DNA of 64,000 bases from Alteromonas australica (GTDB taxonomy: Bacteria; Pseudomonadota; Gammaproteobacteria; Enterobacterales; Alteromonadaceae), in the NCBI RefSeq assembly GCF_000730385.1, contig NZ_CP008849.1, positions 3,844,001-3,908,000 on the forward strand. Direction: 5' to 3'. This document shows positions 13,226-34,808 of this stretch, piece after piece. Below the pieces are notes generated by a model. The model was not told where the DNA came from. It searched no databases and was given only the letters and a program-made list of their open reading frames with translations. Made by a program: the position numbers and the translations under genes. Each line of letters starts with the position of its first letter. The stretch's first letter is position 1.

Positions 13226-13744
13226 ATGGCTTCACCAAAATTACACATGGCATTTCGTAAATATCACCGCTGGCTGGGATTTTTCCTTGCTGGGATAATG
13301 GCTGTGTATGCCATTAGTGGGATTTTATTGATTTTCCGTCCCACCGACTTTTTAAAGTTTGAGCAAACTGAGATAAGACAATTAGACAGCGGGCTTACTG
13401 CCAAACAACTTCCTAATGTGCTTAAAATAAAGGGAAGTCGCGTTGTGGATGAAACCGATACCCACATCACCTTAAACGTGGGTGAGTATAGTAAAGCATC
13501 GGGTGAAGCGACTATTACCCGCAAGAACTACCCGTTGGTGCTTAATAAAATGGTTAAGCTACACAAAGCCACCAACAATAGCCCGCTATTTTGGCTGAAT
13601 ATTTTCTTTGGTATTAGCTTACTATTTTTCGTTATTTCTGCATTTTTGATGTTTATTCCCAAACTGCCCATGTATAAAAATGGATTGAAAATAGCGGGAA
13701 TAGGTGCGGTGGTTACTGTACTCGTTGTCGTATTCGGCTCTTAA
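13226..13744 (+). CDS. PepSY-type membrane protein
   Basis: A small membrane protein of about 172 residues from the ATG at 13226 (an in-frame TTG lies 12 bases upstream). An N-terminal FRKYHRWLGFFLAGIMAVYAISG helix carries the K-x-H-x-W pattern seen at the start of PepSY-associated transmembrane proteins. A periplasmic stretch of about 75 residues follows, then two helices near 125-147 and 155-172. Family members often accompany iron uptake or reductase systems; nothing nearby assigns a partner. Confidence 0.55.
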   Translation: MASPKLHMAFRKYHRWLGFFLAGIMAVYAISGILLIFRPTDFLKFEQTEIRQLDSGLTAKQLPNVLKIKGSRVVDETDTHITLNVGEYSKASGEATITRKNYPLVLNKMVKLHKATNNSPLFWLNIFFGISLLFFVISAFLMFIPKLPMYKNGLKIAGIGAVVTVLVVVFGS

Positions 13745-30487: not shown

Positions 30488-30916
30488 TTAGTCCTCTACG
30501 TTCAAGCCCATTGAGCGAGCAGAACCCGCGATAGTGCGTACCGCTGCATCTAAGTCAGCTGCAGTTAGATCTGGCTCTTTAGTTTTAGCAATCTCTTCTA
30601 GCTGAGCGCGAGTAACTTTACCCACTTTCTCAGTATTAGGACGGCCAGAACCACTCTTGATGCCAGCTGCTTTCTTAAGCAGGTAAGACGCAGGAGGAGT
30701 CTTAGTTTCGAATGTGAAAGAGCGATCTTCGTATACCGTAATTTCTACTGGTACCGGAGCGCCTTTTTCAAGGCTATCAGTTTTCGCATTGAAAGCCTTA
30801 CAGAATTCCATGATGTTCACACCATGTTGACCTAGTGCAGGACCAACTGGTGGACTTGGGTTAGCAGAACCAGCTGCAACCTGAAGCTTGATAATACCGC
30901 TTACTTTTTTAGCCAT
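30488..30916 (-). CDS. rplK: 50S ribosomal protein L11
   Basis: Complete L11, 142 residues, with [34 protein letters not shown] (the Pro-rich N-terminal domain, thiostrepton site) and the RNA-binding C-terminal domain ending [14 protein letters not shown]. It belongs to the GTPase-associated centre and is needed for RelA activation. It is transcribed from the strong promoter at 31007-31035. Confidence 0.98.
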
Positions 30917-31006
30917 TTTACATGCTCTCTTGTTTGGGTCTAACGCCTCGCAAATACAGAGAATATTTGCTCAATCGGCTTCCCGTTTCCGTTTAAAAGG
31001 GCGCGC

Positions 31007-31035
31007 ATTATATAAGGTGATTAATTGCTATGCAA
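31007..31035 (-). promoter_or_regulatory. Promoter of rplKA
   Basis: On the minus strand TTGCAT (31030-31035) and TATAAT (31007-31012) have a 17-base spacer and a GC-rich start (GCGCGCC) typical of growth-rate-controlled ribosomal promoters. It separates rplK from the bacteriocin-like pair, so the insertion upstream leaves ribosomal expression intact. Confidence 0.85.
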
Positions 31036-31142
31036 GCATTAATGTGATTAAAAAACGCTCTCACGGACAGTTTTTTAATGGAATTCTTCGGCAGATAATT
31101 ATCAAGCCAACTCACTGGCAATGACTATCAAGAGGAAATGAA

Positions 31143-31451
31143 ATGGAAGAATATCAATTTACAACATTAAGTGAAGACGAAATGAACCGTGTTAATGGTG
31201 CTTGGCTTGCAAATGCTGCTGGCGCTATCGCCGGTGGTGTAGGCGGTTTTTTTGGCGCTATAATTTCTGGGGGGCAAGACGCAACAGCAGAAGATTTAGC
31301 TATTGGCGCATTTTCTGGATTTATCGCTGGTGGATTAAACCCTGTAAGGGGTTTCGGAAGCTTGGCGACAACGTTGGGCGGTACAATCGTAGGATCAGGT
31401 GCGTCTAGCCTGGCTGATGATATGATACAGAGCAGAAGGCTACGTTATTGA
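31143..31451 (+). CDS. Putative class II bacteriocin precursor with double-glycine-type leader
   Basis: A 102-residue precursor. Residues 1-20 (MEEYQFTTLSEDEMNRVNGA) fit the double-glycine leader pattern L-S-x-x-E-(M/L)-x-x-V-x-G-(G/A), as in colicin V and class IIb bacteriocins, with cleavage expected after Gly19-Ala20. The 82-residue core is rich in Gly and Ala with repeated GxxxG-like runs (AGAIAGGVGGFFGA, GAFSGFIAGG, TTLGGTIVGSGASS), has no Cys, and ends basic (QSRRLRY). The start has a good AAGAGGAAA ribosome site. A perfect 10-bp inverted repeat (31047-31079) lies upstream. The next gene encodes a small membrane protein, as for immunity. Killing activity is inference; no export ABC-peptidase is in the window. 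Confidence 0.65.
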   Translation: MEEYQFTTLSEDEMNRVNGAWLANAAGAIAGGVGGFFGAIISGGQDATAEDLAIGAFSGFIAGGLNPVRGFGSLATTLGGTIVGSGASSLADDMIQSRRLRY

Positions 31452-31468
31452 GAGTGAGAGGAACGTTT

Positions 31469-31678
31469 ATGGAATTTATTATTGGTACGCTATTGTGGTT
31501 AGTATGGGTAGTTGCCCTCAATGTCGTATTTAAGGGCGTATTGAAAGTCGGCTTTTGGGGCGCTATAAGCGACGCACCACAACTTTCGTCTTGGCAAGCA
31601 CACCTACTGCAAGGCATATTCATTCTTGCCCTATTAGTTCCTGCTTACTTGCTTATTCCTTTTGGAAACGTTTCTTGA
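31469..31678 (+). CDS. Small membrane protein, candidate bacteriocin immunity protein
   Basis: A 69-residue protein from the ATG at 31469, preceded by GAGAGG at a 7-base spacing; a TTG at 31448 in the same frame overlaps the bacteriocin stop and is less likely. Two hydrophobic helices (about 3-25 and 47-66) flank a short loop with one Asp and several polar residues. It starts 17 bases after the bacteriocin-like gene and shares its terminator, the usual layout of a class II bacteriocin and its immunity gene. I recognise no named family. Confidence 0.55.
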   Translation: MEFIIGTLLWLVWVVALNVVFKGVLKVGFWGAISDAPQLSSWQAHLLQGIFILALLVPAYLLIPFGNVS

Positions 31679-31712
31679 ATAACGCTATACCGACAAAAAC
31701 GTAATTAAAAAC

Positions 31713-31739
31713 AAAAAACCTGCCAGAAGCAGGTTTTTT
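31713..31739 (+). terminator. Bidirectional terminator between the bacteriocin pair and nusG
   Basis: AAAAAACCTGC and GCAGGTTTTTT form an 11-bp stem with a 5-nt loop and T-runs on both strands. It would end the plus-strand bacteriocin unit and the minus-strand secE-nusG transcript, isolating the two. Confidence 0.9.
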
Positions 31740-31761: not shown

Positions 31762-32310
31762 TTAACCTTTTTCTACTTGACCAAATTCTAGGTCTACTGG
31801 TGTAGAGCGACCGAAGATAAGCACCGATACTTTTACGCGACTCTTTTCGTAGTCGACTTCTTCTACCACACCGTTGAAGTCTGCAAAAGGACCATCGGTA
31901 ACACGAACCACTTCGCCCGGCTCGAACAAAGTTTTTGGCTTTGGCTTATCAACCGACTCTTCAAGACGGTTTAAGATAGCGTCTGCTTCTTTTTGCGTAA
32001 TAGGCATTGGGCGATCTGATGTACCACCGATAAACCCTAGTACACGAGGCACACTTTTCACTAAGTGCCATGAATCTTCGTTCATCGCCATTTCAACCAA
32101 TACATAACCAGGGTAAAACTTACGCTCTGATTTACGCTTTTGGCCTGCACGCATTTCAACCACTTCTTCTGTCGGTACAAGTACCTGACCGAAGTGCTCT
32201 TCCATGTTGTGCATTTTGATGTACTCAAGCAGAGTCTTTTTTACACGTGCTTCATACTGCGAATATGCTTGTACTACGTACCATCTTTTCTTAATTGCTT
32301 CTTCAGACAT
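31762..32310 (-). CDS. nusG: Transcription termination/antitermination factor NusG
   Basis: Complete NusG, 182 residues. The NGN domain starts [20 protein letters not shown] and contains [32 protein letters not shown]. The KOW domain (about 128-182) has [32 protein letters not shown]. It binds RNA polymerase to raise processivity and links to Rho or to ribosomal S10. It starts 3 bases after secE ends. Confidence 0.98.
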
Positions 32311-32966: not shown

Positions 32967-34808
32967 TCACTCGACACCAATAAAGCCCCCTGTTTGATGC
33001 GCCCACAACTTGGCGTAAATGCCATTGTGTTCAAGTAATTGTGCGTGGCTCCCCTGTTCTACAATTTTGCCTTTATCCAACACAAGTAGCCTGTCCATTT
33101 GCGCTATGGTTGACAGTCGATGGGCAATGGCCAGTACCGTTTTGCCTTCCATAACTTTATCGAGACACGCTTGTATCGCCGCTTCCACTTCTGAATCTAG
33201 GGCGGAGGTGGCTTCATCAAGAATTAATACGGGGGCATCTTTCAATAGCACTCGAGCAATGGCCACCCGTTGTCGTTGCCCACCTGACAGCTTCACACCT
33301 CGCTCGCCCACATGAGCATCGTATCCAGTGCGCCCCTGACTATCGGTGAGCGTAAGGATAAACTCATGGGCCTCGGCTTGTTTGGCTGCACGAATCATAT
33401 CCTCTTCTGTGGCGTCGGTTCTGCCATATAAAATATTGTCGCGAACCGAGCGGTGCATCAACGAGGTGTCTTGAGTCACCATGCTTATTTTCGCGCGTAA
33501 GGTTTCTTGGCCTACTTGGGTAATGTCTTGGCCATCAATGGCAATGTGTCCACTTTGGGCATCATAAAAACGCATTAACAGGTTCACTAGGGTAGATTTT
33601 CCCGCCCCGGAACGACCGACCAAACCCACTTTTTCCCCTGGTTTGATGGCTAAGTCGAGTTGCCGGAATACATCTATAGGCTTGTTTCCGGCCCCCGTAT
33701 AAGAGAAGTGGATATTGTCGAATGTTATTGCGCCGCCGTTAACCGTCAGAGCATTCGCCTTAGGGGCATCTTTTACCGCAATGGGTTGCGCCAAGGTATT
33801 CATGCCATCTTGAACGGTGCCTAAATTCTCAAATAAGCCTGACACTTCCCACATGATCCAATGCGACATACCGTTGAGGCGTAAACACAAACTTATCGCA
33901 ATGGCGATATCGCCAGCACTGGCAATATTTTCTAACCAAAGGTGTATCGACAACGCACCTATAACAAAAATCAGTATGGCATTGGCCATTTCAACGCAAA
34001 ATTCGAGTACGGTAACAAGGCGCATTTGCGGGTATACGGTTTTTAAAAAGCCGTCCATGCTTTCTTTGGCGTAATCGGCCTCTCGTCGGCTATGGGAAAA
34101 CAGTTTTACCGTGGTGATATTGGTGTAACTATCAACAATACGCCCAGTCATTAGTGAACGGGCGTCAGCCTGCCGCTGAGAAACAACTTTCAGCTTAGGC
34201 ACCAATACACGAAGAATACATATATAGACAAAAAACCAAACAATAAGCGGTACCGCTAATCGCCAATCCGTGCTGAAAATTAGCACCACCATTGAAATGA
34301 AGTACACACAAATGTACACCATTAAATCGAGCACTTTGGTTACCGTTTCACGCACTGATAACGCAGTTTGCATCACCTTTGTTGCTACCCTACCGGCAAA
34401 TTCGTTATGAAAAAAGGTGAGGCTTTGCCCTAGTAAATAGCGGTGAGCCTGCCAGCGAATTCGCATGGGATAGTTCCCCATTAACGACTGCCTAGAAAAC
34501 AATGAGCGCAGCAAAATAAAACCGGGAATAAGTACTAATACCGTGGTTCCCATCCCCACCAATGTCCATTTTTGCTCATCAAGAAAGGTGTCTCTGTTTT
34601 GCTCGGAAAACCAGTCCACCATTTGGCCAAGAAACCCAAACAGCGCGACTTCCAGCACAGCGACGATCGCACTTAATAAGGAAACAATAGCGATAACCCC
34701 CCACATGCCCTGGGTGTAGTATTTGCAAAAAGCGACAATACCTTTAGGAGGTTGAGCGGGTGGCGTGTCGGGAAAGGGCTTAGTTAAGCGCTCGAAAAAT
34801 GAAAACAT
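32967..34808 (-). CDS. ABC exporter, fused permease and ATPase
   Basis: A 613-residue half-transporter of the MsbA/multidrug type. Six transmembrane helices lie between about 33 and 320. The ATPase domain has Walker A GRSGAGKST (near 400), the signature LSGGQRQRVAIARVLL and Walker B VLILDEATSALDSE, and an H-loop AHRLS, so it is complete. It lacks an N-terminal C39 peptidase domain, so it is not a typical bacteriocin exporter. It should work as a homodimer exporting lipids or drugs. It lies upstream of tRNA-Trp, which has its own promoter. Confidence 0.9.
   Translation of the reverse strand: MFSFFERLTKPFPDTPPAQPPKGIVAFCKYYTQGMWGVIAIVSLLSAIVAVLEVALFGFLGQMVDWFSEQNRDTFLDEQKWTLVGMGTTVLVLIPGFILLRSLFSRQSLMGNYPMRIRWQAHRYLLGQSLTFFHNEFAGRVATKVMQTALSVRETVTKVLDLMVYICVYFISMVVLIFSTDWRLAVPLIVWFFVYICILRVLVPKLKVVSQRQADARSLMTGRIVDSYTNITTVKLFSHSRREADYAKESMDGFLKTVYPQMRLVTVLEFCVEMANAILIFVIGALSIHLWLENIASAGDIAIAISLCLRLNGMSHWIMWEVSGLFENLGTVQDGMNTLAQPIAVKDAPKANALTVNGGAITFDNIHFSYTGAGNKPIDVFRQLDLAIKPGEKVGLVGRSGAGKSTLVNLLMRFYDAQSGHIAIDGQDITQVGQETLRAKISMVTQDTSLMHRSVRDNILYGRTDATEEDMIRAAKQAEAHEFILTLTDSQGRTGYDAHVGERGVKLSGGQRQRVAIARVLLKDAPVLILDEATSALDSEVEAAIQACLDKVMEGKTVLAIAHRLSTIAQMDRLLVLDKGKIVEQGSHAQLLEHNGIYAKLWAHQTGGFIGVE

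Follow-up and report, generated by a model that had tools for sequence, protein, structure and literature searches.

A probable microcin-like bacteriocin and immunity cassette between nusG and rplK of Alteromonas australica

In Alteromonas australica, two small genes are located between the core genes nusG and rplK, which raises the question of what their products do and how such a pair comes to lie at this place. The stretch of DNA analysed, here termed the window, comprises 64,000 nucleotides (NZ_CP008849.1, positions 3,844,001 to 3,908,000). A preliminary description had interpreted the pair as a bacteriocin gene accompanied by its immunity gene. This interpretation passed the computational tests, and the pair probably represents a microcin-like bacteriocin and immunity cassette, as judged from its sequence, whereas the statements on the conservation of the junction, on an inverted repeat and on the exporter had to be corrected. 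Killing, immunity, export in trans and the recombination mechanism are what we infer from the analysis summarized here.

The junction and the gene pair of the window

The junction is composed of the following features:
30488..30916, minus strand: rplK (L11), core flank (ORF list and search)
30917..31073, minus strand: conserved rplK upstream region, left edge of the hotspot (in three independent comparisons, the block stops 157-161 bp from rplK)
31047-31056 and 31070-31079, no strand: 10-bp inverted repeat, straddling the left junction
31074..31712, no strand: swapped cassette, approximate extent (flank identity to G026)
~31131-31136: AGAGGA ribosome-binding motif of the precursor gene, directly 5' of the start at 31143
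31143..31451, plus strand: precursor gene, 102 aa, double-glycine (GA) type (ORF list; homologue omega far below 1)
31143..31202, plus strand: leader peptide MEEYQFTTLSEDEMNRVNGA, predicted cut after Ala20 (Gly19-Ala20)
31203..31448, plus strand: predicted mature peptide, 82 aa, 7.9 kDa, first residues WLANAAG (composition; invariant Gly/Ala columns across homologues)
31469..31678, plus strand: two-helix membrane protein of 69 aa, presumed immunity protein, 17 bases 3' of the precursor ORF
~31713..31739, no strand: hairpin of a bidirectional terminator that also serves nusG; the insert ends here on the right (both strands fold)
31762..32310, minus strand: nusG, core flank (ORF list and search)

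The edges of the insert became apparent by comparison with G026, a genome in which just a cassette remnant persists: identity is lost at gap position 157 (window 31073) and regained at gap position 797 (window 31713). Since the conserved flank ends 157-161 bp from rplK and the nusG terminator follows at the right, the cargo is located in a neutral spacer between two operons. The bidirectional terminator proposed to close the unit was recovered, as the hairpin folds on both strands (z -4.4 and -6.5 by direct folding), and its segment is conserved in G026. A terminator scan did not report the hairpin at 31713-31739, probably because the T-run was counted into the stem. The 10-bp inverted repeat, previously noted upstream of the pair, does exist, but since its left arm lies inside the conserved flank upstream of rplK, a block extending to about 31073, it is largely core flank and no cassette element; its right arm is absent in G026. 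A convincing cassette promoter was not found in a promoter scan, and the region is without a match in Rfam.

Both open reading frames of the pair described earlier, with 102 and 69 residues and 17 bases apart on the plus strand, are present, and each is preceded by a ribosome-binding motif. Among the ORFs of at least 45 aa in the window, 31143-31451 alone matches the double-glycine pattern, and the proposed leader with an expected cut after Gly19-Ala20 fits a pattern that is rare by chance (60 first-order Markov simulations of 64 kb yielded 0.05 such ORFs on average and never more than 1). Hydrophobic residues at positions -4, -7 and -12 serve as a criterion for leaders of class II microcins (PMC11494933), and GA is accepted as a variant of the double-glycine cleavage motif (PMC10233263). 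The leader MEEYQFTTLSEDEMNRVNGA contains L-12, M-7 and V-4 as well as the GA motif and thus corresponds to the GG/GA leaders of the C39 type, at a length of 20 aa versus 15-18 aa in known microcin leaders (PMC10233263). Mature class II microcins are characterized by a size of about 5-10 kDa and a glycine content of 12-26% (PMC11494933, PMC10233263), and the predicted mature peptide lies within both ranges (7.9 kDa; 18 Gly among 82 residues, 22%). Its core is devoid of cysteine and Gly/Ala-rich, as had been stated. The precursor aligns over its full length with the intact homologues, 23 positions being invariant in six sequences. Sequence searches of the PDB gave no match, and an AlphaFold2 model of the precursor was set aside as poor (pLDDT 57).

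Most relatives, including precursors with unrelated cores, have an acidic tail in common (TTDE, TDDE, TLDE, STDE), which may matter for uptake or export. The window precursor is without such a T-x-D-E tail and ends in SRRLRY; a relative from Aestuariibacter ends in KRRLSD. An origin of SRRLRY by frameshift was considered and rejected, as the neighbouring frames, read by eye, give no end of the TTDE type and the Aestuariibacter relative has KRRLSD. The atypical tail, together with the stages of decay found in the close relatives G010, G033, G026 and G038, would suit a decaying remnant with no current function in the source strain, but both ORFs are of full length with ribosome-binding motifs and the 23 invariant positions are retained, and we consider this explanation very unlikely.

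The 69-aa protein is predicted to form a hairpin with helices at residues 2-24 and 41-62 (AlphaFold2, pLDDT 87), in agreement with hydropathy and with the two helices described before. Its family is characterized by a loosely conserved motif (N-x-x-LKR...GFW) and was found in 16 of 60 genomes of the genus, one of these being marginal. As a small two-helix membrane protein adjacent to the precursor, it has the anatomy expected of a microcin immunity protein (51-216 aa) and, in addition, the orphan pattern described below.

Cargo, pair logic and turnover at the junction

The nusG-rplK junction had been regarded as one of the most conserved in bacterial chromosomes; this does not apply to the genus. 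Among the 57 genus genomes with a resolved gap, 20 have empty gaps (204-267 bp) and 37 have longer gaps filled with cargo, up to 10.3 kb (the longer gap of G049 includes a run of N), so that the junction represents a hotspot rather than an invariant site. Bacteriocin-like cassettes or remnants occur at this site in 14 genomes:
G000 (the window), G013, G053: intact one-peptide cassettes
G017, G030, G035, G059: intact two-peptide cassettes, membrane protein of the 112-aa class plus small membrane protein
G011: third cassette type
G010, G033, G026, G038, G019, G058: broken, remnant or orphan cassettes

The membrane protein of G058 is homologous to its counterpart in G011. The two-peptide GG-leader cassettes (L031, L032, L033 and L030, corresponding to G017, G035, G030 and G059) encode membrane proteins of 110-114 aa and of 61-66 aa and resemble class IIb two-peptide bacteriocins.

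Other cargo of the junction includes GGDEF cyclases, MscS-type channels, periplasmic binding proteins, a beta-lactamase-fold protein and an ABC transport operon. A GGDEF diguanylate cyclase with a small protein upstream, oriented in the direction of rplK, occupies the junction of six genomes (L094, L095, L067, L068, L098, L102); both domains were confirmed by Pfam in the G040 copy and the remaining copies were assigned by resemblance. Seven genomes (L104-L110) have an operon of about 5 kb at the junction that encodes a solute-binding protein as well as a permease, as Pfam confirmed for the G023 copy. No integrase was seen among the junction ORFs examined. Gap length also varies in other genera of the family. 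In G498, which belongs to a different genus within the family, a related precursor and a 78-aa membrane protein with overlapping stop and start (L229:6850-7388) are found next to rpsQ, where the S10 ribosomal operon ends, and a further GG-leader peptide is located at 13464-13691; the ends of ribosomal operons may be favoured as insertion sites.

In all seven loci of the close family, the precursor gene is followed by a gene for a small two-helix membrane protein. These loci represent three chromosomal contexts, namely the nusG-rplK junction, a position next to adk and, in Aestuariibacter sp. AA17, an unrelated site. An intact membrane protein without an intact precursor is present in G010 (core deleted), G019, G042, G036 and G025; a second membrane-protein locus in G035 was left out of this count, being too near to a sequence end. 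The orphans of G042, G036 and G025 show pairwise omega values of 0.04-0.07, which indicates that they are kept for a function independent of the precursor. The simplest reading is that immunity was retained after loss of the toxin, and an asymmetry in which the membrane protein outlasts the precursor is expected of a toxin and its immunity protein. The orphans could also be listeners, if the precursor gave rise to an exported signal or matrix peptide similar to GG-leader pheromones and the membrane protein were its receptor or helper. Pheromones also use GG leaders, and one sibling precursor gave a weak ComC match (E 0.052). The predicted Gly/Ala-rich mature peptide of 82 aa is, however, far longer than known pheromones, the 69-aa hairpin has a short interhelix loop and no kinase or regulator domain, and unrelated peptides replacing each other at one site suit weapons better; a signalling role is thus unlikely.

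In the families of precursors and membrane proteins, omega is mostly 0.03-0.3, which indicates purifying selection; for the most similar precursors with enough differences for a measurement, it amounts to 0.08. The membrane proteins diverge faster than the precursors, most strongly between G017 and G030, whose precursors are 89-94% identical, the 112-aa proteins showing just 48%. This is awkward for a strictly cognate immunity; either older toxins acquired new immunity genes by recombination, or the immunity has a broad range. In other genera, the more distant relatives mostly have different small membrane proteins as partners, and the start and stop codons frequently overlap; for one precursor copy in G455, no partner is obvious. 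A genome scan with the single protein found no relatives of the precursor, in contrast to the profile searches; order-wide profile matches with E values of about 1e-4 in long ORFs were set aside as chance matches of Gly-rich sequence.

The comparison of the gap among relatives, proposed as a check in the preliminary description, revealed a patchy rather than constant occurrence of the pair. G053 and G059 are 99.07% identical in nusG and rplK (9 of 972 bases differ), yet the former has a one-peptide and the latter a two-peptide cassette, and their gaps align over the first 161 bp only. G013 contains, besides its own pair, an orphan membrane protein of 112 aa that shares 95.5% identity with the one in the two-peptide cassette of G017. 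Since the tail of the final gene in such a cassette is also left in G013, this genome is a mosaic. The cassettes are scattered over the nusG+rplK tree, where nusG and rplK may themselves be exchanged. Cargo hotspots between core genes that are driven by recombination and lack mobile elements have been described (PMC5635113), and the turnover pattern fits recombination at the flanking core genes. Plasmid and viral collections contained no homologue of the precursor, so that carriage by plasmids or phages is unsupported.

Export of the predicted peptide

The window was stated to lack a C39 peptidase-transporter, and all three C39 matches of the whole genome indeed lie outside it. The exporter to be expected elsewhere in the genome is present together with HlyD:
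C1:3803837-3807261: HlyD and C39 peptidase ABC transporter (the latter at C1:3805048-3807261), ~68 kb from the pair, outside the window

The catalytic Cys/His/Asp triad of this exporter looks intact (ECGLAC, HWDMQHF and HDPA motifs), and matches to the TolC family above the cut-off were obtained at C1:702024 and C1:1109100. Hence, the genome combines a C39 exporter having the catalytic residues with TolC, as required for a microcin, whereas the C39 exporter and HlyD, which adjoin the precursor in the microcin definition, are about 68 kb away. Around the cassettes at nusG-rplK and adk, the sequence read contained no exporter. Within the window, an ABC transporter (32967-34808) was rejected as the exporter because it has no C39 domain; a homologue of it also adjoins nusG in G019 and G059, which carry other cargo.

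Export would therefore presumably occur in trans by the distant C39 exporter. Strong C39 matches are found in 58 of 60 genomes of the genus (none in G006, only a weak one in G019, which retains just the orphan membrane protein), and since nearly all genomes possess an exporter, its co-occurrence with the cassette weighs little. In G591, from another genus, a C39 exporter and HlyD are encoded at a distance of about 1.8 kb from a remote homologue of the precursor (hhalign 96.7%, E 3.7e-10). This exporter is 50% identical over 693 aa to the C39 exporter of the window genome, which links the precursor family to this exporter type. This neighbourhood, the conservation of the leader motif across the family and the omega of 0.08 for the precursors also argue against an intracellular membrane-active peptide with a small membrane antitoxin, i.e. 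an addiction-like pair acting without export. Such a pair would agree with two small, hydrophobic, adjacent genes and with the lack of a neighbouring exporter at most loci, but we regard it as highly improbable.

The exporter locus is situated beside hslU (L021:6838-11764, corresponding to G000:C1:3803837-3808763) and contains HlyD, the C39 exporter, a LuxR-type regulator, a short peptide with a GG leader and a gene resembling ATP-grasp maturases (TIGR04187, E 4.9e-25, below cut-off). The locus, which recurs in many genomes of the genus, resembles an uncharacterised cluster of the graspetide type. Owing to its own GG peptide and ATP-grasp gene, the exporter may be dedicated to that product. 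The maturase-like gene might also suggest that the precursor is a substrate of a modification enzyme, such as this ATP-grasp ligase, and that the product has a different role. As the short GG peptide of the cluster has a different core, no gene for a modification enzyme was seen close to the pair in the loci covered and the core of the precursor contains no Cys, this explanation is highly improbable.

For the bacteriocin and immunity cassette, the following mechanism is proposed. The GA-type leader would be recognised by a C39 exporter from another chromosomal locus, most probably that of the conserved HlyD/C39 pair at a distance of about 68 kb, and be cut after Ala20, and the 82-aa peptide would exit via the exporter, HlyD and a TolC-type channel. 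The exported peptide would insert into the inner membrane of susceptible close relatives, while the 69-aa hairpin in the inner membrane of the producer would block it. The cassette, containing neither exporter nor recombinase, occupies the neutral spacer that separates the terminator of nusG from the upstream region of rplK and would be gained, exchanged and lost by homologous recombination in the near-invariant flanking genes.

Meaning and relation to known systems

The nusG-rplK junction might, as a tentative generalization that we hold to be possible, act as a slot into which exporter-free cassettes with several unrelated kinds of precursor are plugged, all of them launched by a single conserved C39 exporter of the core genome, with toxin losers keeping the immunity gene and arsenals being exchanged by homologous recombination between near-invariant ribosomal genes, without mobile elements. 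The general kind of system is known; what would be new is that swappable cassettes without an exporter of their own occupy a junction of ribosomal operons and are served by a conserved exporter far from it. If true, microcin-type warfare would extend to an environmental, probably marine genus. Published microcin criteria rely on proximity of the exporter (PMC11494933), and modular toxin-immunity cassettes with a remote exporter would escape searches confined to the neighbourhood of the exporter. The genus would also offer natural experiments, as genomes with cassettes, broken cassettes, orphan immunity genes and empty gaps exist for one site, so that killing and cross-protection could be predicted from sequence.

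In profile searches, the best match of the precursor was Bacteriocin_IIc (PF10439; E 6.7e-4), but its 20 bits remain below the gathering cut-off of 27.1, and no class II or microcin model exceeded its threshold; TIGR03949 (lactobin A/cerein 7B, class IIb) gave E 0.013 and 15.3 bits (cut-off 21.5). Both models also match several homologues below their cut-offs, and the sole match above a cut-off was that of the leader model TIGR01847 to a sibling cassette (16.2 vs 15.7 bits). Because it scores below the curated cut-offs, the window precursor is designated microcin-like, without formal family membership.

A likeness to colicin V and class II systems had been claimed earlier for the leader pattern and the layout. 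Like class II microcins (MccV/colicin V), the window precursor has a GG/GA leader whose positions -4, -7 and -12 are hydrophobic and a mature part of corresponding size and glycine share, a small putative immunity protein of the inner membrane is adjacent, and a C39 exporter, HlyD and TolC are encoded in the genome. Unlike in these systems, the exporter and membrane-fusion genes are not adjacent, no match exceeds a cut-off (the MccV Pfam model gave E 0.4, with one sibling only), and the peptide is without a siderophore-type Ser-rich tail. With the bacteriocins of PF10439 and TIGR03949, which provide the best profile matches, it shares the GG leader and the Gly/Ala-rich core; it differs in the Gram-negative host, in the presence of one precursor instead of two and in scores below the cut-offs. 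The site itself resembles the hotspots of PMC5635113 in the turnover of cargo between conserved core genes, with no integrase seen among the ORFs examined, and in near-identical neighbouring core genes whose contents differ; it is distinguished by its location at nusG-rplK and by cargo that consists in part of recurrent bacteriocin-like cassettes.
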